DNA of 33,391 nt from Acidithrix ferrooxidans (lineage in GTDB: Bacteria > Actinomycetota > Acidimicrobiia > Acidimicrobiales > Acidimicrobiaceae): positions 1 to 33,391 of the forward strand of contig NZ_JXYS01000087.1 in the NCBI RefSeq assembly GCF_000949295.1. Reading direction: 5' to 3'. Below the pieces are notes generated by a model. The model saw only the letters and a list, made by a program, of their open reading frames with translations. It made no database searches and was not told the origin of the DNA. Shown here one piece after another: positions 2,799 through 25,330 of this stretch (within the stretch, counting starts at the first letter, position 1; each line of letters begins with the position of its first letter). A program made the position numbers and the translations under genes.

Positions 2799-4586
2799 TC
2801 ACGGATGCAATACTCCAAGAGTCGCTGAGATAAAGTTCTCATAGGATTTGACTAGAGATGCTTGTGAACTTCCACTGTCTTCCATAAAACCAACCTCTCT
2901 ACCGTTACCATCGATAAAGTAAATCAATTGGGGATTGGCAACTCGCCCTATCGGAGCTTGTGCGGGTGATGCCGAATATTGCTTCCAGAGGGCATAGAGA
3001 TCAGAAAGAGGCCCCGTCACGAAGTAGAGATTTCTAACCGAGCCAAGACCATTCTCGTTCAAAAATTGATCTATCGAAGCAGCCGAGGTGAACGAGGGGT
3101 TGATATCGATCAAAAGAATCGCGACATTTTTACCCGCCGATCCTAGAGATGAAAGACTATTGAGCATCTCCTTAACCATCGTCGCAGAGACGTTCCAAGC
3201 AACCGGATCCACAAACGAAGCAACCACTACCTTGTTGGCAAAAGTTCCCATTGTAACTTGAGAACCATTTTGATCCACCAGTGAAAAGTTAGGCGCGCTT
3301 TTATTGGTCGCTACGAGGCCCCCTCCATCTGCCACCGCTCCGTAATAACTCGCGCTTGCGGCAGCCGAGGGCAAAAGAGCCATAATGGGTACTATGGCGA
3401 CCAATGCACCTATTAGTCCGGCAGTGATTCCAAATCCTCTTGGATCTCGCCGATACTCCTCCTCGATCACGACCACTCGCCTTGAGGGGACTAGAGCATC
3501 ACCACTGATCACTATCAACCCAATAGTCAAAACGATTAGTGGCAAGGGAGAATTTGGATCCACCGCATATGGCACAAAGATTCCAAAGGCCATTCCGACC
3601 CACCACGCAACCAAGGTTATTGCAATCGATCCGAAGGCAAAACCCTTGTTCTCCTTGGCAAAGGCAATACCAAGGCCGACCAAGACCATAGAAACGATAA
3701 AAATCAAATTCCAAAGCGAGGCAGATGAACTGGTCGCAGTCGCCATGAAAGCCATTGGGCCACTTATGAAGCTTGGTAGTGCTAAATTGGCATCCACCCG
3801 AAAGATCCCTGAAAGGCCCGATGCGCTCCAAAAGCCTTCAGATGGGAGCGCTTGGACCAGTGCCATCAAGAACCAAAAAAGGCCAAAAGTCAACCGAGCC
3901 CAGCGTTGAACGGTTCCATCGCGAAACCGTGAAGAGGGCACAAGCAGGAGAACTCCGCCCAAAAGATACAGAAGACCGCCGCCTGGCGCGCCTGAAAAAA
4001 ATGAGGCTCCGTTGGTTGCCAGCATTCCGAATCCTTCAACAAAGATCCAGGTTATGGCTCCCATTGATATAGCAAGCCATCCGACCACTTTACGAAGGGG
4101 GCCTCTGGATGCAAAGAGCATCAAAATCCCAATCGATGCCTCTAGCCAAAACTTGGCAACGCTAGCTCCCACTGGATCAAAACGCCAAAGATAAAGTCCC
4201 GCTCTCATCACCCACGAAATTGGCGAAGGTTGATTCACCAGCGCCGGTGAGATGTAGTCACTTATCATATTGGCTGGAGCGTTCGCTCTATTTGACATGA
4301 TCGCATCGACAATCCATAAGATTCCGAATGATACTCTGATAAAGGCCACGCCTTTAGATTCGATCTCACCATCTCCGCCGGAGGGTTCCAAAAGGAGGAC
4401 TCGACGCAAAGTAGTCATTATGCGACCAAAGGGTCTTCCCGCCATAAGAGTCCTATTAGAGGAGGCGAGATAGATCAAAAGATAGCAAATTAGGGCAACG
4501 ATTACGATTATCCCGCCAAATACCGCGAGCCGTTGAATTACCGCACTAGAAGTATTGGCAGAAAGTGCCTCACCCGGCAAATTCAT
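2799..4586 (-). CDS. Polytopic membrane protein: two DoxX-like modules plus cysteine-less SCO/thioredoxin-like domain
   Basis: A 595-residue protein. ATG 4586 is chosen because GGGGAG lies eight bases upstream; the frame opens earlier at a TTG (4637) with no better site. Numbered from this start: one membrane span near 18-42, then two related modules. Module 1 (about 80-190) opens with FIRVSFGILWIVDAI; module 2 (about 229-340) opens with WARLTFGLFWFLMAL. Both resemble DoxX-type four-helix units, so the membrane part looks internally duplicated. A last span near 386-410 leads to an external domain (about 431-595) with SCO/TlpA-like features: APNFSLVDQNG, KVVVASFVDP, and PQLIYFIDGNG. The CxxxC pair expected after FVDP is absent (AWNVS, 3180-3212), and the expected His is Asn (AN at about 2934-2939). 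No function in copper or disulfide chemistry can be assumed. A lipoprotein gene follows. Confidence 0.7.
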   Translation of the reverse strand: MNLPGEALSANTSSAVIQRLAVFGGIIVIVALICYLLIYLASSNRTLMAGRPFGRIMTTLRRVLLLEPSGGDGEIESKGVAFIRVSFGILWIVDAIMSNRANAPANMISDYISPALVNQPSPISWVMRAGLYLWRFDPVGASVAKFWLEASIGILMLFASRGPLRKVVGWLAISMGAITWIFVEGFGMLATNGASFFSGAPGGGLLYLLGGVLLLVPSSRFRDGTVQRWARLTFGLFWFLMALVQALPSEGFWSASGLSGIFRVDANLALPSFISGPMAFMATATSSSASLWNLIFIVSMVLVGLGIAFAKENKGFAFGSIAITLVAWWVGMAFGIFVPYAVDPNSPLPLIVLTIGLIVISGDALVPSRRVVVIEEEYRRDPRGFGITAGLIGALVAIVPIMALLPSAAASASYYGAVADGGGLVATNKSAPNFSLVDQNGSQVTMGTFANKVVVASFVDPVAWNVSATMVKEMLNSLSSLGSAGKNVAILLIDINPSFTSAASIDQFLNENGLGSVRNLYFVTGPLSDLYALWKQYSASPAQAPIGRVANPQLIYFIDGNGREVGFMEDSGSSQASLVKSYENFISATLGVLHP

Positions 4587-4697
4587 AGTCAAATACTCCC
4601 CAACTACAAAAGACGTCCCACAACTCGACCGCTCCAACTTCTGCGATCGATAAATTTCACTTCAAAAGATGATAAACGCTACTTTATGCTTTACTGC

Positions 4698-4781: not shown

Positions 4782-6179
4782 TCATCCCCACATTGACCAT
4801 CCGCCTAGATTTTCAACAAGCCTGAATGAACTCTCTGGGCCGTTGGATCCTCGATAATAGATCTGACACTCAGGTGGATCGGTGATTATAGGCTCAACGA
4901 TTCGCCACGCCTCAATAACTGCATCCTGGCGCGCGAAGCGGGAGAGATCACCCCTTATTGCGTCGTGCAAAAGTATTTCATAGGCTTCAGAGTTTCCGGC
5001 CGACGCCTCTGGATCGGCTACTTCGAGATCAACTGGCATTGGGATCAGGTCCGACCCAGGCTGCTTCACATGGAGCCGAAGCGTGATTCTTTCACTTGGC
5101 TTGAGCTCAAAGCGCAACTCATTCGGCAACATCGACTTGGAGGAGAGCTCACCAAAAAGGCGCGAAGGTGGTTCTTTGAAACGAACTACCGCCTCTGTAG
5201 TAGTGGTATTTAGATATTTACCGGTTCGAATCAAAAACGGAACCCCAGCCCAGCGCCAGTTGTCGATCACAGTTCGCATTGCAACAAAGGTCTCCGTATG
5301 AGACATTGGGTCAACGCCAACCTCATTACGATATCCTTCGTATTGGCCTCTAACAAAGTCATCGCGAGATGGAACCCTCATCGCCTTGAGGACCTTCAGC
5401 TTCTCATCACGCAGAGCGTCTGGATCCGATGATGCCGGTGGCTCTAGCGCCAACAGTGCGACCAATTGCAGAAGGTGGTTTTGAACCACGTCGCGAGTTG
5501 CACCGATGCGATCGTAAAAACTCCCGCGATTTTCTATGCCAAAGTCCTCAGCCATCGTAATCTGCACACTGGAGATAAAGTTTCGGTTCCAAATTGGCTC
5601 TAAAATCGAGTTCGCAAAACGGAAGACCAATAAGTTTTGAACTGGTTCCTTGCCAAGAAAGTGATCAATTCGATAGATCGAGTCCTCACTAAAGTGGCGA
5701 TGCAGATGGGTATTTAGATCAATCGCTGACTCGGTATCGCGTCCGAATGGCTTTTCGATTACTAATCGAGCAGATCGAGTTATGCCTTGGGCTGCAAGAC
5801 CGTCGACCACGATCTCAAACATATCAGGAGGTACCGCCAGATAAAAGATTGGACGGTGATTTCGACCCAGCTTTTGCTCTAACTTTTGATAGATCGATGG
5901 ATCTAAATAGTTTCCAGATACATAAGAAAGAGTTGAGCACATCTCATCTAGCACATCCATCTCGATATCTTCGCCCGCGAGCTTTATTGAAGATATCGCA
6001 TAATCTCTAAATTCACCATCGGTCCACTCGGTTGCTGCAACGCCGATAACTTGAGCTGGAAGAAGCCCATTTCGAGCAAGTCGATAACAAGCTGGTAGTA
6101 GTTTCTTTTGGGCGAGATCACCCGAAGCTCCAAAAAGCACTAAGGCGTCTGATTTGGCTCGCTTTTTCTTACTCATCAT
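4782..6179 (-). CDS. zwf: Glucose-6-phosphate 1-dehydrogenase
   Basis: Oxidises glucose 6-phosphate to 6-phosphogluconolactone with reduction of NADP (or NAD), the entry step of the oxidative pentose phosphate pathway; cytoplasmic. In the 465-residue product the N-terminal Rossmann motif GASGDL is near 17-22, EKPFG near 142-146, and the active-site motif RIDHFLGKE near 170-178 with the catalytic His and substrate-binding Lys, then the conserved RFAN and IWNRNFI segments. Length is slightly under the usual 480-510, mainly from a short N-terminus. Two in-frame ATGs (6179 and 6176) are candidate starts; a TTG at 6206 opens the frame but is less likely. It is terminated by the hairpin at 4698-4735. 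Upstream on the same strand is a 6PGDH-like gene, but the usual OpcA partner is not in the window. Confidence 0.95.
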
Positions 6180-6474
6180 CTCTTCAACAAACCACCTAAC
6201 CCGCAATTCCTACGGCTCGTAACTTAAATTTATTATCAGGATCCCATAACGACGCTTGCTCAAACAATGGATATACAAAGGGGCACCCTACTGCCGCTCC
6301 TCCTATTTCCGCACTAATTCCGCATCGTTCGGCTCCTTAGCCATTATCTATAGTGATCGCGCTTCAGAATGGACTTCATTAGCACCAAAATCATTCGAGG
6401 TGGCCACTTCCTTTACGGTCATGGAGCTCAAAAAGAAGCCGATTTCAATCAAATCCTTTGACCGAAAAGGTAAA
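6180..6474. other. Gap between 6PGDH-like gene and zwf
   Basis: About 295 bases without a convincing gene. I translated the minus strand looking for a missing C-terminal half of the upstream 6PGDH-like protein and found only short frames with stops and no family motif, so the upstream gene does not appear to be a simple frameshift of a longer one. The plus-strand frame at 6256-6531 has no recognisable content. A promoter for zwf may lie here, but none could be assigned. Confidence 0.4.
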
Positions 6475-7137
6475 TCAAGCCTCGACACTAGAACCACCGG
6501 CCATCAAATCTCGACCAAATCTCGGCTTTGAATCGACGTTTCGAAAAAGAGACTTAACCAGTGACGGATCCATTTCAAAGTCACTATTGGATAATTCATA
6601 GGCTGCGCCTTGGTAAAGCTTCAATATCTCCGCATTCATAGCCTCTAAAGTATCTCTGGCGTAGTGACCCGCACCAGCCTTTGTAGAGAGATGAACGACA
6701 TTGCCCTCATTCGAAATAGCGTCAAGCAAGGGAAAAACCATCTCAAAATAGTCGTCAAATCCAGATACAAAAATTTGCGAACTTCTCTCGGATAAATCAC
6801 CATCTATCCAAAAGTCCATATAGCCGACTAGCAAATCATAAAAAGAGCTGGCGTTTCTCTTTGACTGCTGGTGATCCGATTGGGTCGCATCCAAGACTAG
6901 GTCACCAGCTGCTAATATGGCGAGCATTCCATGGATAAAGTCACCAGGAAGTTCGCATTCCGGATCTGTTACAAAAATGATTCTGGGCACCGGCAATTGT
7001 TCGACGAAATCATGGAGACTTTCACCTCCGTCACCGCCCACTGAACCACGATGGGTCAGAACTTCATTCCCCAAGTGGCAAAGTCTGCCACTTAGTTGAT
7101 CATGCAACAAACCTTGACCAATCAAACCAATCTTCAT
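6475..7137 (-). CDS. 6-phosphogluconate dehydrogenase-like protein lacking catalytic residues
   Basis: A 220-residue protein with the N-terminal fold of 6-phosphogluconate dehydrogenases of the GndA/YqeC type. It starts with a dinucleotide-binding motif (MKIGLIGQG) and keeps the family's GFDDYFEMVFPLLDAI and STKAGAGHYAR segments (about 126-161). Known enzymes need Lys, His-Asn and Glu in the GAGHxxKMVHNGIEY motif; here the aligned positions are Arg161, Leu164, Glu165 and Asn168. The SGG substrate loop is also unrecognisable (WIDGDLSE, about 110-117). It is shorter than the usual 300 residues and lacks most of the helical C-terminal domain. It lies upstream of zwf, the normal place for gnd, so it could be a decayed gnd, a binding or regulatory protein, or a different oxidoreductase. 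The ribosome site is weak. Confidence 0.65.
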   Translation of the reverse strand: MKIGLIGQGLLHDQLSGRLCHLGNEVLTHRGSVGGDGGESLHDFVEQLPVPRIIFVTDPECELPGDFIHGMLAILAAGDLVLDATQSDHQQSKRNASSFYDLLVGYMDFWIDGDLSERSSQIFVSGFDDYFEMVFPLLDAISNEGNVVHLSTKAGAGHYARDTLEAMNAEILKLYQGAAYELSNSDFEMDPSLVKSLFRNVDSKPRFGRDLMAGGSSVEA

Positions 7138-8050
7138 ATAATCTCGAAATCCTCGTGCAAGAACACTTCTGATCGATCCGAGACAGAATTACCTCTCGAC
7201 CGACAATTACCATGGTACGCAATCAAAAGTCTAAACCGATAGGGCGATGTTGCGAATCTTCCGACACAGGGTATCGACGATTGCCTAATTCCTAGTAACA
7301 CCTACAACCCTTAAGGCTACTTGATCAAAGTTGGATATAGATAGTAAGGTTTGATCATTAGCGCCCATCACGACTAAACAACCATAGTCGATACGCACAA
7401 AGAAATAGAGGTCGCGATGGCCAATTCCGGAGGCCTCAAGCCGCCAAAAAGCCAACGCCAGCAGTTTCGACCTATAAGTGCCCTTTTGAGTTGCAAAAGC
7501 CCGAGCTTACATCGGCGATAGGCCGACAATTCAGATCACCTGTGCTCGCGCGCCCCACGACGCAGTTAAAGGCTGCCAATTCCTTGACCGATAGTGGTCA
7601 GAGACCTAAACGGTGCCAGAGTCCAAATCGTATCCGTCCGCCCGAAGTGCCTCCTCCACTGTTTTGAGTCATTATTCATTGACATCCAAATCACTAGCTA
7701 GATGTCCGAGCCTTGCCACGTGCTGTGGTTTCTCCCATGAGACAACCAACAGCTCCAACTATTACTTGATTGTTCGCATCTATGTCTCCGATCCTGTTTT
7801 GGGTCATTAGATGGAGACCTGCCAATCACTTAATATGAGTACTCTCGAAATGAATGTGCAGATAGCAAGGCCAAAATATTGGATTTACCCTACGGACGAA
7901 AGCCTGCCTTGGTGCTCATTCAAAACTGCGCAAATTTCAAAGACAACTACGACTCAAACAATTTACATAACAGCAAAAGTCATTTGAATTTCATTATTTA
8001 GCTTTCTGCGCACAACCCGAACCAAGCTAGCCAAGCGATAGTATTCAAAT
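7138..8050. other. Long intergenic region between divergent genes
   Basis: Over 900 bases between the minus-strand 6PGDH-like gene and the plus-strand UvrA-like gene. It must hold promoters for both, but no convincing pair could be placed. The only frame of note (7613-7810, 65 codons) has no ribosome site or motif. Two short similar strings, CTGTTTTGAGTCATTA near 7659 and CTGTTTTGGGTCATTA near 7794, suggest a decayed repeat. No tRNA, small RNA family or LexA-type GAAC-N4-GTTC box was seen. Confidence 0.45.
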
Positions 8051-10453
8051 ATGACGAACGAAACTTCTCACCAGGTTGCTCTTTCAGATAGCCATGACTT
8101 CATCACGGTGATCGGCGCACACGAAAACAACTTGAAAGGAATTGACGTAACAATCCCAAAACGGCGTCTCACTGTCTTTACTGGAGTATCCGGCTCCGGG
8201 AAAAGCTCATTGGTCTTTTCCACAATAGCCGCCGAATCCCAGCGTCTGATAAACGAAACCTATAGCGCATTTGTACAGGGATTCATGCCCACGATGACTC
8301 GACCTGATGTCGATCTCCTTGAAGGATTGACGACCGCCATCATAGTGGATCAACAACGGCTCGGGGGAGATCCTAGGTCTACCGTTGGAACGCAAACCGA
8401 TTCAAACGCATTGCTTCGGATTCTCTTTTCAAGGTTTGGCAAACCCTACTATGGCTCCCCTAACGCCTTTTCGTTTAACGTTCCATCAGTAAGGGCCAGC
8501 GGATCTATTACCGTAGAGAAGGGTAACGCAAGAGCCGTTAAGACCACCTTTCAAAGACTGGGCGGAATGTGTTCAAAGTGCGAGGGGAGAGGAACCGTCT
8601 CTGACCTAGATCTGAGTGAACTATACGATGAAAATAAATCACTAAACCAAGGTGCTATCAAAGTACCTGGCTATGGACCTGACAGCTTTTGGACGCTCAA
8701 ACCATTTACCGACTCCGGCTTTTTAGACCCTGACAAAGCAATAAATCAATATTCCAAAAAAGAACTGCACGACTTTTTATATCACGAACCAGTTCGAATA
8801 AAGGTAAACAATGTCAATGTCACTTACGAGGGACTGATCCCAAAGATCCAAAAATCAATGCTCTCCAAGGATCAAGAGGGGCTGCAACCTCATATCAAAA
8901 CATTTATAGAGAGAGTTGCGACATTTTCTATCTGCAACGAATGCGATGGTACGCGACTCAACGAAGGAGCTCGATCGTCAAAAATTAACGGCCTTTCGAT
9001 TGCGGATGTATGTGCAATGCAAGTCAGCGATCTCAATTCATGGATCAAAGGAATCGATGAACCTTCAGCTGCCCCCCTTTGCGATTCCCTAAGCAAAACC
9101 TTTGCCGCATTTGTAGAAATTGGCCTCGGATACCTGACATTAAATCGCCCCACTAGCTCACTCTCTGGCGGCGAAGCCCAACGAACCAAGATGATCGGCC
9201 ATTTAGGTTCTTCACTGACCGATGTAACTTACATCTTCGATGAACCAACTATTGGACTTCACCCCCACGACATCGAGAGGGTGAACCAACTGCTTCTGCG
9301 ACTTAGGGATAAGGGAAATACCGTCTTGGTCGTCGAACACAAACCCGAAATGATAGAGATCGCGGATCATGTCATCGACTTAGGTCCAGGCGCAGGTAGT
9401 GAAGGTGGCCGCGTTTGCTTCAGCGGAAGCGTCAACGACCTAATTCTAAGTGACACTCTTACAGCCAAGCACTTTGGCTACCGCGCTTGCCTAAAGCCAC
9501 ATATCCGCAGCTTCATCCAAAAGCTGGAAATTCGTGGTGCCAATAGCCACAATCTCAAGAGCGTTGACGTCGATATTCCGCTTGGTATTTTGGTGGTCGT
9601 AACCGGAGTAGCTGGTTCAGGCAAGAGCTCGCTACTCGCTGGGTCAGTAGCAAAAATGGATCAAGTTGTCTATATTGACCAAAGCCCGATCAAAGGATCC
9701 CGTCGCAGCAATCCCGCAACCTACACCGGCCTTCTCGAACCAATAAGAAAAGCGTTCGCAAAGGCAAATGGCCTAAAGCCCGCGCTCTTTAGTTCCAACT
9801 CAGAGGGGGCTTGCCCCAATTGCAATGGAGCTGGAGTCATATATAGTGATTTGGCGATCATGGCTGGAGCATCCGTTGTCTGTGACGAGTGCGATGGAAA
9901 AAGATTTTTGCAATCAGTTCTTGAATACAAGCTCGGGGGCAAGGATATTTCAGAGGTCTTATCGATGTCCGCAAATGAAGTTCGCGACTATTTTGGAAGC
10001 CTGCAAACAAAGATCCCGCTCGCAGAGCAAACTGTCACAAGATTGATAGAGGTAGGACTTGGCTACATTCGAATTGGTCAGCCTTTGACAAGTCTCTCTG
10101 GTGGTGAGCGTCAACGACTAAAGCTCGCAACGCAGATGGCAGAGGAAGGCGATATCTACATACTCGACGAACCAACTACGGGCCTTCACCTAGCTGACAT
10201 CGAAAAATTGCTCCATCTTCTTGACCGCCTGGTCGACGGCGGTAAGAGTGTTATTGTCATAGAACACCACCAAGCAGTAATGGCTCATGCCGATTGGATA
10301 ATCGATCTAGGTCCCGGTGCGGGACACAACGGCGGCGAGGTGGTCTTCAACGGACCGCCCTCGCAGTTGGTTGAAGAAAAATCCACTCTGACGGGAAAAT
10401 ACCTAGCAAAATATCTCGAAAAAAAAAGACTAAGTAACTTCAACGATGCATAA
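8051..10453 (+). CDS. UvrA-like ABC ATPase, short form (UvrA2/DrrC type)
   Basis: An 800-residue tandem ABC ATPase of the UvrA superfamily. ATPase 1: Walker A GVSGSGKSS at 45-53, signature LSGGEAQ at 371-377, Walker B YIFDEPT at 394-400. ATPase 2: Walker A GVAGSGKSS at 519-527, a second LSGGERQ and a second ILDEPT. Zinc-module cysteines occur at 174/177 and 295/298 in the first half and 588/591 and 611/614 in the second. True UvrA is about 940-970 residues; the missing length fits loss of the UvrB-binding domain that normally follows Walker A. Such short forms occur as UvrA2 and in self-resistance to DNA-binding drugs (DrrC). It is likely a cytoplasmic DNA-binding ATPase for repair or drug tolerance, not the main NER damage sensor. 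Upstream Shine-Dalgarno is weak. Confidence 0.88.
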   Translation: MTNETSHQVALSDSHDFITVIGAHENNLKGIDVTIPKRRLTVFTGVSGSGKSSLVFSTIAAESQRLINETYSAFVQGFMPTMTRPDVDLLEGLTTAIIVDQQRLGGDPRSTVGTQTDSNALLRILFSRFGKPYYGSPNAFSFNVPSVRASGSITVEKGNARAVKTTFQRLGGMCSKCEGRGTVSDLDLSELYDENKSLNQGAIKVPGYGPDSFWTLKPFTDSGFLDPDKAINQYSKKELHDFLYHEPVRIKVNNVNVTYEGLIPKIQKSMLSKDQEGLQPHIKTFIERVATFSICNECDGTRLNEGARSSKINGLSIADVCAMQVSDLNSWIKGIDEPSAAPLCDSLSKTFAAFVEIGLGYLTLNRPTSSLSGGEAQRTKMIGHLGSSLTDVTYIFDEPTIGLHPHDIERVNQLLLRLRDKGNTVLVVEHKPEMIEIADHVIDLGPGAGSEGGRVCFSGSVNDLILSDTLTAKHFGYRACLKPHIRSFIQKLEIRGANSHNLKSVDVDIPLGILVVVTGVAGSGKSSLLAGSVAKMDQVVYIDQSPIKGSRRSNPATYTGLLEPIRKAFAKANGLKPALFSSNSEGACPNCNGAGVIYSDLAIMAGASVVCDECDGKRFLQSVLEYKLGGKDISEVLSMSANEVRDYFGSLQTKIPLAEQTVTRLIEVGLGYIRIGQPLTSLSGGERQRLKLATQMAEEGDIYILDEPTTGLHLADIEKLLHLLDRLVDGGKSVIVIEHHQAVMAHADWIIDLGPGAGHNGGEVVFNGPPSQLVEEKSTLTGKYLAKYLEKKRLSNFNDA

Positions 10454-10787: not shown

Positions 10788-11423
10788 GTGCTAGAGAATG
10801 AGGATTTCTTTCGAACGACACCTCGATCCAATCAAATCAATAACTATTCAAATGACCCAAACGACCGATCGACGAGGAGAGGCCGAAGGAGCTCTTTCTC
10901 CGCAGAAACCAACAATGCGTACGGAGGCTTCAATCCTTATATAGCCGGATCAGTTGAACCCGCGAGCTTCTTTCGTCGTTTAGGCGCCACCTTGGTAGAT
11001 TCACTTTTGGCCGGCATAGTCGCAGGAGTTGGATATTACATCTCCTATAACATAATTTCGACCAACTCTAACGCGTCCGTGGCACAGCTCACCTTTTCTG
11101 CCGTAGCGTTAAACCTTATTTTTACAACGATTTATCAGATCTTTTTAATCGGCAAATTTGGTCGAACACTCGGTGACGTCGTTACCCGTACCCGCATCGT
11201 AAACCAAGATATGCAAATACCTGGTTACGTAGCCGCAACAAAGCGCTTGGCAGTCACCCTAGTGGTGCAACTTTTAGCAGCACTGTCACTTTCAACCTTC
11301 GGACTCGTTATTACATTTGTCGACGATCTTTGGATGCTATCTGACAAGAACCGACAGACAATACACGACAAAATCGCTGGTACTTATGTTATTGTCGACC
11401 CAGCCCCTCGACGCGCTCAATAA
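10788..11423 (+). CDS. RDD-domain membrane protein
   Basis: A 211-residue protein starting at GTG 10788, preceded by GGGAAGGA. The first 60 residues are polar, rich in Asn, Arg and Ser (probably disordered and cytoplasmic). The RDD domain follows: SFFRRLGATLVDSL contains the family's Arg and Asp, with membrane spans near 68-88, 97-115 and 160-180, and the last Asp of the motif in FVDDLWML near 182-190. RDD proteins are small inner-membrane proteins, mostly uncharacterised; some act in ion or amino-acid transport. The gene stands alone between gaps of more than 300 bases, so context gives no clue. Confidence 0.82.
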   Translation: MLENEDFFRTTPRSNQINNYSNDPNDRSTRRGRRSSFSAETNNAYGGFNPYIAGSVEPASFFRRLGATLVDSLLAGIVAGVGYYISYNIISTNSNASVAQLTFSAVALNLIFTTIYQIFLIGKFGRTLGDVVTRTRIVNQDMQIPGYVAATKRLAVTLVVQLLAALSLSTFGLVITFVDDLWMLSDKNRQTIHDKIAGTYVIVDPAPRRAQ

Positions 11424-11807: not shown

Positions 11808-12305
11808 GTGTATCGTGTCGTCATGCCCCTTTTAAAAGAGACCGGATATGTCAAAAAAATAATTGAACAGGTTGAAAAAGTATTGTATCTTCTGGTAGGT
11901 ACACTACTTGTGATAATGGCTTTGGCCGTCTTCGTGCAATCAGCAGCCGATCTCTCAAAATTGACGTTTTCAACTTTTGTAAACTCACAGATCGCAAAAC
12001 TCCTAAACGATGCCCTCTTTACCATTATCATCCTTGAGCTACTCTCAACTGTGGTTTCACACCTTTTCCGGGGAGGATTTCAGCTAAAGGCATTTTTGGT
12101 AATTGGGATAATTTCATCGGTACGACGCGTTCTCGTTATAGGAGCGCAATTATCCACGACCTCCACAATTACTAATTCATCCTTTAATCGTGGAATCATT
12201 GAGCTTGGAGTCGACGCGGGCGTAGTTCTCCTTCTTTCTGTTGCACTCGCCATCAATCGAAAGTATTCAACCGACAAAGAGAAAAAATCTGACGCTGTCC
12301 ACTAG
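11808..12305 (+). CDS. PsiE-like membrane protein
   Basis: A 165-residue integral membrane protein resembling the phosphate-starvation-inducible PsiE family. Four hydrophobic segments are visible (near 26-48, 68-85, 93-112 and 128-150). The strongest family-like part is the conserved third helix with its basic end, KAFLVIGIISSVRRVLVIGAQ-like, near 93-113. Start GTG 11808 has AGGG nine bases upstream; an in-frame ATG at 11823 is an alternative. The biochemical role of PsiE is unknown. I saw no recognisable pho box upstream, so phosphate control should not be assumed. It is a single gene with its own upstream gap. Confidence 0.7.
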   Translation: MYRVVMPLLKETGYVKKIIEQVEKVLYLLVGTLLVIMALAVFVQSAADLSKLTFSTFVNSQIAKLLNDALFTIIILELLSTVVSHLFRGGFQLKAFLVIGIISSVRRVLVIGAQLSTTSTITNSSFNRGIIELGVDAGVVLLLSVALAINRKYSTDKEKKSDAVH

Positions 12306-22798: not shown

Positions 22799-22828
22799 TT
22801 AACGAAGGCGAAGTTAACGAAGGCGAAG
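22799..22828. repeat. 15-base tandem duplication across a stop codon
   Basis: TTAACGAAGGCGAAG occurs twice in tandem (22799-22813 and 22814-22828). On the minus strand this repeats the last four codons and the TAA stop of the transferase gene, so the duplicate copy lies in the 3' untranslated region. Confidence 0.9.
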
Positions 22829-25330
22829 TCCAGATGAGTCGTTCACTATTACCGCGATTCTCTCCCTCAGAGAACTCAAAATACTTACTCCTTCAATTTC
22901 AGAGTCACTCTCCACCCATATATGCGTAATTGGCTCGACGGGATCTGGAGCTACCAAATACCACGATGAATTGGTCTCTGCATATATTCCATCGATAAGC
23001 GTGGTCTCTTGATCGCCGATACCATCCAAAAGGATCCTCATCACAATTCCCTTGGACTCCCAAGGAGTAATAACGGAGTCGTGAATTACTCGAATTGGCT
23101 CAATCTCCCCAACGACCTCGGCAAGGGTCCTATTGGTAACAGCCAAAAGCGAGAGAAGCTGGACCAACGCCGCGCAACCATCATATCCAGGAAGAAAGTT
23201 GGGAAAGATAAAGTTTCCTTCAACCCCAGCTACCAAATCACGGCCACGGGTAGCAGGCGAGGCCGCCTCCATAAGGCCACTTGTAGATCGCTTTGTAAAA
23301 TGCAAGGTGCCGCCAAAACGCGTAACTGCATTTCGAAGAGCCTTTGGAGATCCAATAGGTACCGAAATCTGAGCCGATGGATTGGCCTCAGCGACTAACC
23401 GACAGAATATCACCTGAGATTCGAAGCCACTCAAAATTCGGCCCGTATTGTCCACGAGGATAATCTTCTCCCCAACAGAGTCGATTCCAATTCCAAATTC
23501 CGAACGTGATGTAACCACTAACTCAGAAAGGCGGCTCATGTTAGCAGACTGATCCGACTCGACAATTCGTTTCGTGGATGAGAAGGGGTTTATCCCCAAG
23601 ACATCACCGCCGAGTTTCGACAAGACACTAGGAAAGATATGAGACGAAACACCAAAGCCATAGTCAACTACGAACTTAAAGTTACGATCTCGAATCCGAC
23701 CTATCTCGGCTTGCTCAAGCAAGCTCTGGGCGTAAAACTCGGTATTACGGGCGGGAAAGTCCAATTCGCCAAGTTCAGAAGCCAAGACATTTCGAAAATC
23801 TTCTCGAGCTAAGCCACGTTCAATTTTGCGCTGCGAGGCCTCGTCGAGGTCAATTCCATTCTCATCGATGAATCGAATGACGACCGACTCCGGATCATCA
23901 GGATCCAGAACGACCGCTAGCCCCCCCTTGCTCGATGTATTTCGCACGTGAAAGCGCAAAGCTGGAATCGGTGCCACCTCGAGGTCCGCTACGTCAATTC
24001 CAACTGCATTCAATCCCACCATGAGTGCACGCTTTAACATTCGTGCCGCCCTAGAGGAGTCTCTGGCGGTCGATATTCTAGCACCAGGCTTCAAATTTGA
24101 ACCAAATGCCATCGCGAGTCTAAGAGCAAGCTCAGGGCCGATATCGACATTAGCGATACCCGATACGCCATTGGATGAAAAGACACTTCTTGTCCCTTTG
24201 GACTCCCAAACGATCGATGTCAAAACAGTAGCACCGGATTGAACCGTCTTTGAAGGATAGATCTTCACCTTGGAAAAGAGCTGCGCACCATCGCCTACAT
24301 AGCAGTCCGAGCCCAGGACAACTCCATCTTCGGTGTGCACACTTCTCCGCAAGTCACAAGATTTTCCAACGATAGTACCACGGATAATGCTACCTTCACC
24401 GATGTAGACATTCTCATGAATAACAGAGCGGTCAACCTCTGCGTGTTTAGAGATACGTGAATTAGAGCCGATTACGCTATAGGGCCTTATCTTGGCTTCC
24501 GGACCGATTCTACAGTTGTCTCCAATAATAATTGGACCTTCAAGCAAAGCAGTGGGATGTACCTCGGTCCCATCACCAAAGTAGACACCCTTGTCTACCA
24601 TAAAGCCAAGAATTTCAAGATCTACACGATGATCCAAAATATCCTTATGCGCATTCAGGTATGCTTCCAAGGTCCCTACGTCTTCCCAATAACCTTCGCA
24701 AACCATGGCGTGGATCGGAATCGAATCCTCCAGTAGACGCGGAAAAACATCCTGAGAGAAGTCTAGGGCTTTACCAACTGGCATATAGGAAAATATCTCC
24801 GGCTCCAGAACATATATGCCTGTGTTGATAGTGTCGGAAAAGACCTGTCCCCAGGTTGGCTTTTCGAGAAAGCGACCTACAGTACCGTCGTCATTTGTCG
24901 TAACGATACCGAACTCCAGCGGATTCTCCATTGATTTGAGGCCGATGGTAGCTGTAGCTTTGTTGGACTGATGGAACTCAAGCAATGCACCCAAATCAAT
25001 ATCGGTTAGAACGTCGCCAGAGATAACCATAAAAGTCGACTCTAAAAGTTCACGACAATTCCCAACTGACCCAGCAGTACCAAGGGGTGAATCCTCATTA
25101 GAGTAACTAATCCGAATTCCAAACTCCGAGCCATCCCCAAAGTAGGTTCGAATCGCGTTGGCCATGAAGGCAACTGTGATAATCACCTCATCAAAGCCAT
25201 GCTTTTTCAGAAGCGTTATTATGTGCTCCAACATCGGGGCATTTCCGATTGGCAACATCGGCTTTGGAGCGGTTGCCGTTAACGGCCGCAAACGGGTCCC
25301 CTCACCGCCAGCCATTATTACAGCTTTCAC
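22814..25330 (-). CDS. Mannose-1-phosphate guanylyltransferase-like protein fused to a phosphomannomutase-like domain
   Basis: An 838-residue three-part enzyme for nucleotide-sugar supply, probably GDP-mannose. Residues 1-240: nucleotidyltransferase, with [11 protein letters not shown] (8-18), the KPMLPIGN segment (23-30), SGDVLTDID (104-112) and EKPTWG (156-161). About 250-375: left-handed beta-helix hexapeptide repeats. About 390-838: phosphohexomutase-like part with [16 protein letters not shown] (421-436) and a late [12 protein letters not shown] segment. In that part the catalytic Ser loop TASHNP is replaced by RNTSSKGG (463-470), and the Mg motif DGDxDR by GIDSVGEK (615-622), so mutase activity is doubtful; such loss is common in this fused family. 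Start GTG 25330 has GGAAGGGG upstream. A terminator follows at 22750-22791. Confidence 0.85.

Follow-up and report, generated by a model that had tools for sequence, protein, structure and literature searches.

To our knowledge, pseudoenzymes of bacterial central carbon metabolism that have demonstrably been retained after the loss of catalysis are not often documented. In the sheep 6-phosphogluconate dehydrogenase (6PGDH), Lys183 acts as the general base and Glu190 as the general acid, and Ser128, Gly129, Gly130, His186, Asn187 and Tyr191 are ligand residues, as given in the accessible part of the source (PMC8900737). A member of the same superfamily, NPAC/GLYR1, harbors a catalytically inert β-hydroxyacid dehydrogenase domain that serves as a scaffold, according to the accessible text of PMC13144531. 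OpcA (PF10128), an assembly factor or regulator of glucose-6-phosphate dehydrogenase (G6PDH, encoded by zwf), would be a functional analogue of the protein considered here if the latter acts on G6PDH. In the accessible text of a literature coverage without most subscription journals, no description was found of an inactive 6PGDH of this kind or of an Acidithrix 6PGDH.

The protein in question is encoded in a stretch of 33,391 nucleotides of Acidithrix ferrooxidans (contig NZ_JXYS01000087.1), which is called the window below and belongs to a genome assembly of 183 contigs and 4,019,867 bases. A preliminary description of the window had presented it as a 6PGDH-like pseudoenzyme next to zwf, a designation that is supported by its homology to the short-chain 6PGDH gene gnd, by the loss of the catalytic residues and by the zwf gene at its side (Table 1).

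The locus

Table 1. Features of the window at and around the zwf locus
Feature	Position	Strand	Remarks
Membrane protein with SCO1/SenC domain	2799..4637	-	Adjoins zwf in 5 of 5 congener stretches examined
zwf (glucose-6-phosphate dehydrogenase)	4782..6206	-	TIGR00871 509 bits, cut-off 400.6; same direction as the ORF
Gap between ORF and zwf	6207..6474	-	268 bases, without detected gnd C-terminal remnant
Pseudo-6PGDH ORF	6475..7137	-	220 aa, ATG start, catalytic residues lost, C-terminally truncated
Former catalytic helix, residues 161-168	6634..6657	-	R161 (Lys), L164 (His), E165 (Asn), N168 (Glu)
GAGH, residues 155-158	6664..6675	-	Retained
Eroded dinucleotide motif, residues 7-12	7102..7119	-	GQGLLH; GLGRMG-like in gnd
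UvrA-like ATPase, 800 aa	8051..10453	+	Between ORF and RDD in the window
RDD-family protein	10788..11423	+	Flanks the ORF in three congeners
PsiE-family protein	11808..12305	+	Outer flank in 5 of 5 congener stretches examined

Despite its extreme divergence, the ORF runs through 220 codons without a stop or frameshift, the chance of which is about 3e-6 at its own base composition, and it does not show the broken frame of a pseudogene. In frame, it has a codon score of 0.153; the 12 training genes of the window range over 0.096-0.181 and the other five frames over -0.06 to 0.01. The ORF is more than a chance open frame. A promoter and terminator scan of positions 6000-8200 returned one promoter-like site, on the plus strand, and zero terminator-like sites, both counts lying below the mean of shuffled sequences.

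The place of the ORF had been described as the one where gnd is usually found, and this is fair: among the 80 zwf loci of highest similarity out of 593, two of which have less than 900 bases of upstream flank, 39 have a gnd, recognized by its motif, immediately upstream. The order pgi-gnd-zwf is intact in a genome of the same taxonomic order as the window genome (G026, locus L006). In 37 of the 39 gnd-zwf pairs, no more than 124 bases separate gnd from the zwf match; across the window and the congeners that carry the ORF, the gap between ORF and zwf is 192-268 bases, wider than in most of those pairs, so that co-transcription of the two genes is not implied. A pgi remnant was sought in the 900-base gap upstream of the ORF with the pgi of G026, and this candidate was discarded, as the three tblastn hits in the window (best E=1.1) all fell outside the gap. 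Further upstream, the UvrA-like ATPase scores 704 bits with TIGR00630, under the cut-off of 730, and no match to it was seen in the five congener stretches examined.

Relationship to short-chain 6PGDH

By its profile and alignment scores, the ORF is a real, although diverged, homologue of short-chain 6PGDH. Residues 1-198 align with positions 1-211 of the 302 positions of the NCBIfam model PRK09599 with E=1e-15 and 57.7 bits, far under the curated cut-off of 271 bits; in the search of its own genome it reaches 44.8 bits with TIGR00872, below the cut-off of 297.2, and the Pfam model NAD_binding_2 gives 17.5 bits, under its cut-off of 21. When compared with six gnd proteins, the window protein yields z values of 16-25. 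Its AlphaFold2 model has a mean pLDDT of 83.8, with values below 50 at residues 34-36 and 202-220, and the best PDB matches of this model in Foldseek are short-chain 6PGDHs (6vpb, E=4.4e-13; 10gw; 4e21), a fold match that is not independent evidence, because the model was built with the gnd alignment. Identity to the 11 best structure matches is 18-20%. The window protein thus has in common with the short-chain enzymes (TIGR00872/PRK09599; 6vpb, 10gw, 4e21) its descent, the N-terminal fold as predicted with the gnd alignment, the GAGH segment and the site upstream of zwf.

Unlike these enzymes, it is short by some 70-90 C-terminal residues and does not contain their C-terminal helical domain. 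Three intact gnd relatives of the nearest type have 291-307 aa, compared to 220 in the window. The earlier statement that most of the C-terminal domain is lacking has therefore held, given that the profile alignment to gnd stops at position 208-211 of about 300 and that a tblastn search of positions 6100-7200 with four gnd C-termini gave a best value of E=0.12. With the same tblastn value, and with none seen by eye in the three frames past the stop, a frameshifted C-terminal domain downstream was rejected.

In the gnd tree, the window protein sits at the end of a branch of about 10 changes per site, and AU tests reject none of the placements compared: with the operon-type clade (p 0.25), with a 16-row long type that includes the intact gnd proteins of the same genome (0.517) or with the family gnd proteins (0.205). 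The window protein and the gnd proteins of G026, G029 and G037 have a shortened stretch after the second strand in common, which favours this gnd type as a possible origin, gaps being weak evidence.

Loss of the active site

The reference alignment comprised 21 gnd proteins from zwf loci, chosen out of 44 found. Among its 76 columns with at least 95% conservation, the window protein retains 19, three of which (L211, G214 and G215) stand in a tail of doubtful alignment, and the other 57 are changed or absent. Lys, His, Asn and Glu occupy the four columns of the former catalytic helix in at least 95% of the 21 proteins, Lys being found in all 21 at the column of R161, and the conserved Tyr is replaced by A169. 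With the residues of the sheep enzyme assigned to window columns by motif, the protein differs from short-chain 6PGDH in having none of the catalytic Lys, His, Asn, Glu and Tyr. It has also lost two further elements of the short-chain enzyme: the GGN turn reads A84-T85-Q86, and the Ser-Gly-Gly loop reads D112-G113-D114, the conserved Ser and the second Gly both being Asp. The alignment bears out what had been noted of the sequence at the outset, namely that Arg161, Leu164, Glu165 and Asn168 replace the catalytic Lys, His-Asn and Glu and that the GAGH segment is present. The claim that the dinucleotide motif is kept stands in part: G7 and G9 of GxGxxG are there, but the third Gly is His12.

ORFs at the same position in congeners

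Congeners were searched upstream of the orthologous zwf (77-83% identity within the genus). An ORF of 220 aa was found there in G001, G007 and G008, which are three of the nine other congeners in which the region can be assessed; counting the window genome, 12 genomes of the genus were available and the region is assessable in 10, four of which carry the ORF while six keep zwf without it. The two genomes outside this count are G006, where only other zwf fragments were found, and G010, whose contig ends inside zwf. In G002, G003, G004 and G011, RDD starts too near zwf to leave room for the ORF; G005 and G009 have different neighbours there, and inspection by eye showed no similar ORF; G002 and G009 were also negative by tblastn. 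The gene order SCO1-zwf-ORF-RDD-PsiE is found in all three ORF-bearing congeners, and the window has the same order plus the UvrA-like gene before RDD. The ORF of one congener lies at 580-1242 of L045, and neither it nor its counterparts in L044 and L046 match any Pfam or NCBIfam family above cut-off.

A model of the three congener ORFs detected no other strong copy among the 12 genomes of the genus, the next best hit, in G005, having E=0.076. Over 397 genomes of the order, its single match was G008; G001 and G007, which would match, were evidently absent from that sample. Searches with the window protein returned, besides itself, only hits of gnd level in 41 relatives (31 with a match, its own genome included) and in 42 family genomes (23 with a match, its own again included); the loci read from these hits have the KM(V/I)HN motif intact. 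A protein search of genome_contigs with the window ORF gave no hit.

The window protein is far nearer to gnd (z 16-25) than to the ORFs of G001, G008 and G007, with which z is 5.0, 6.9 and 5.0, and 1, 0 and 0 of 500 shuffles, respectively, aligned as well. The three ORFs themselves give z values of -0.5 to 2.9 with four gnd proteins, jointly retain 14 of the 111 columns conserved to 70% or more in gnd, and show no GxGxxG first-strand motif by eye. Alignment of the window protein with them by hhalign gave E=0.0023 with a probability of 12.7%; the model of the three ORFs missed the window protein even with hits admitted up to E=10, and the ORFs in turn were missed by tblastn when the window protein was the query at E 1e-4. 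Both are 220 aa long, but their gaps lie in different places, so that the equal length is partly coincidence. Sequence similarity makes a weak case for orthology.

A second line of evidence comes from shared replacements. S125, Y130, R161, E165 and A169 are common to the window protein and the three ORFs, and each is absent from the 21 gnd proteins. At 16 positions of the four-row alignment, all four proteins have the same residue and the 21 gnd proteins rarely have it; six of these positions are at invariant or nearly invariant gnd columns, namely S125 (G), R161 (K), E165 (N), A169 (Y), L172 (M) and S203 (V). These are raw counts that depend on the alignment, since S203 is in the doubtful tail and R161-E165 are matched across a one-residue gap. 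From position, similarity and shared replacements, the best reading is that the window and congener ORFs probably descend from a common ancestor that had already lost catalysis. Catalysis would then probably have been lost before the split of the four carrier lineages, with the protein retained. The congener ORFs are, as far as their sequences tell, a lineage-specific protein, whose putative gnd origin is visible only through the window copy and the position.

The ORFs of G001, G007 and G008 share 69-77% protein identity, and silent sites are saturated; identity by codon position is 0.71-0.80, 0.86-0.90 and 0.38-0.40. A codon model of the three gives an omega of 0.025 (0.037 is a second value from the same run), a figure that saturation makes rough; the log likelihood is -1913.5, against -2086.4 with omega fixed at 1 (kappa grid), a cost of 173 log units. 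The direction of selection is clear: with omega about 0.03, the congener ORFs are under strong purifying selection. The zwf genes of these three genomes give an omega of 0.011. As for the window copy, its open frame suggests that it would be under selection too.

The four carriers group together on one side of a branch of the zwf tree whose support is 67/95.7; this is weak by bootstrap, and other arrangements are not rejected. At ten sites of zwf, the four carriers agree with one another and differ from the six other genomes; when the window genome is swapped for G009 or G005, 3 and 4 such private sites are obtained, and none with any of the four remaining swaps. These sites were not read as co-evolution of zwf with the ORF, since the carriers might just form a clade.

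Possible function

The gene derives from a short-chain 6PGDH gene that preceded zwf, as gnd still does in related families. The catalytic residues and the C-terminal helical part have been lost, and the shortened protein is retained in three congeners and, by implication, would be in A. ferrooxidans as well. The most likely role of such a product would be that of a non-catalytic protein–protein scaffold or regulator, and its most plausible partner, judging by position, would be G6PDH from the adjacent gene or some other component of the oxidative pentose phosphate pathway. We see about an even chance that a dead 6PGDH derivative has been retained as such a scaffold or regulator, possibly of G6PDH. 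A partnership with G6PDH in particular is spoken against by the six of ten genus genomes that keep zwf without the ORF, and by an adjacency inherited from gnd-zwf pairs. The same applies to the idea of a zwf chaperone put forward in the preliminary description, which may be right and draws its support from position. If the protein does act on G6PDH, a later enzyme of the pathway would have been recruited as a regulator of an earlier step. The material in hand forms a series of intact gnd-zwf pairs in related families, a dead and still recognizable copy in the window, and further-diverged copies in the congeners.

NPAC/GLYR1 offers a parallel to this scaffold or regulator, as far as the accessible text describes it: the catalytic Lys is replaced there too, and catalysis has been lost while the protein was retained, as would be the case for the window copy. 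The two differ in that GLYR1 is tetrameric and still binds NAD(P)H, whereas the window protein, which is bacterial and stand-alone, has neither the ligand sites nor the C-terminal domain. With regard to OpcA, the Pfam scan of the window protein gave no match to it at E up to 10. Of 41 genomes, 4 have an OpcA match, which is about 200-260 bases away from a zwf match; a search of 25 family genomes, the own genome included, found no PF10128, whether or not they carry the ORF. The ORF as a stand-in for OpcA is thus unsupported by presence and absence, there being no complementary pattern, and the same count neither supports nor refutes such a role. The narrower proposal that a clade-specific, non-catalytic subunit derived from 6PGDH controls or assembles G6PDH, in a family where no OpcA was found, must be called unlikely.

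It could also be argued that the protein has acquired a new chemistry or ligand, or a wholly different role that has nothing to do with the pentose phosphate pathway, and that it sits by zwf only through inheritance from the old gnd-zwf pair. The adjacency of gnd and zwf looks ancestral, as the 39 of 80 loci and the pgi-gnd-zwf order of L006 indicate, and position need not mean function; the congener ORFs are past detectability as gnd, and six congeners do without the ORF beside zwf. We hold this account to be rather doubtful, no domain or family match pointing to another activity.

Decay is the next explanation, in which the window copy would be what is left of an operon gnd that became redundant once intact gnd genes had taken over and that is now being lost. 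The genome does contain two full-length gnd genes, on contigs C3 and C117, which score 427 and 424 bits with TIGR00872 (cut-off 297) and have GAGHFVKMVHN intact; the surmise that gnd had been replaced elsewhere is thereby borne out, and actual 6PGDH activity would come from these two genes, to judge from their sequence. The missing active site and C-terminus, the very long branch and the absence of the ORF at zwf in six congeners agree with decay as well. Against it stand the 220 codons free of stops and frameshifts and the codon score like that of live genes, together with the ORFs in the same slot of three congeners, which are under purifying selection and appear to share the replacements at the former catalytic positions. 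The simple decay that the preliminary description had envisaged is therefore disfavoured, and we consider it quite unlikely.

That description had also suggested a sensor, which would keep the 6PGDH ligand pocket for NAD(P) or 6-phosphogluconate and dispense with catalysis. A Rossmann-type fold is predicted and G7 and G9 are retained, but His12 stands for the third Gly, and the GGN turn, the loop Ser and the Lys, His, Asn, Glu and Tyr are lost, as is the C-terminal part; the window sequence argues against dinucleotide binding. As ligand and catalytic residues are gone and the congener ORFs have no first-strand motif, a sensor of this kind is highly improbable. That the protein is still an active 6PGDH, or a related dehydrogenase whose residues are unusual, could be argued from the intact frame and fold, but is hardly credible when the general base Lys, the general acid Glu, the His, the Asn and the C-terminal domain are all absent.

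Other sugar-metabolism genes

At L001 949-2708 and L002 949-2665, both intact gnd genes are followed by an ORF resembling HAD-family hydrolases, for the copy on C3 by Pfam comparison. On that contig, a second zwf (439 bits) comes after gnd and the HAD-like ORF. A third zwf, on contig C130 of the same genome (G000; L073, 610-1113, minus strand), consists of an N-terminal piece of 167 aa only, and is followed on the same strand by an ORF of 112 aa that resembles, by eye, a piece of a zinc-ribbon transposase; this copy may be a G6PDH gene that an insertion sequence has interrupted. The window itself also encodes, at 22814-25330 on the minus strand, a protein of 838 aa that combines a sugar-1-phosphate nucleotidylyltransferase part (about residues 1-353) with a part resembling phosphoglucosamine/phosphomannomutase (about residues 382-823).
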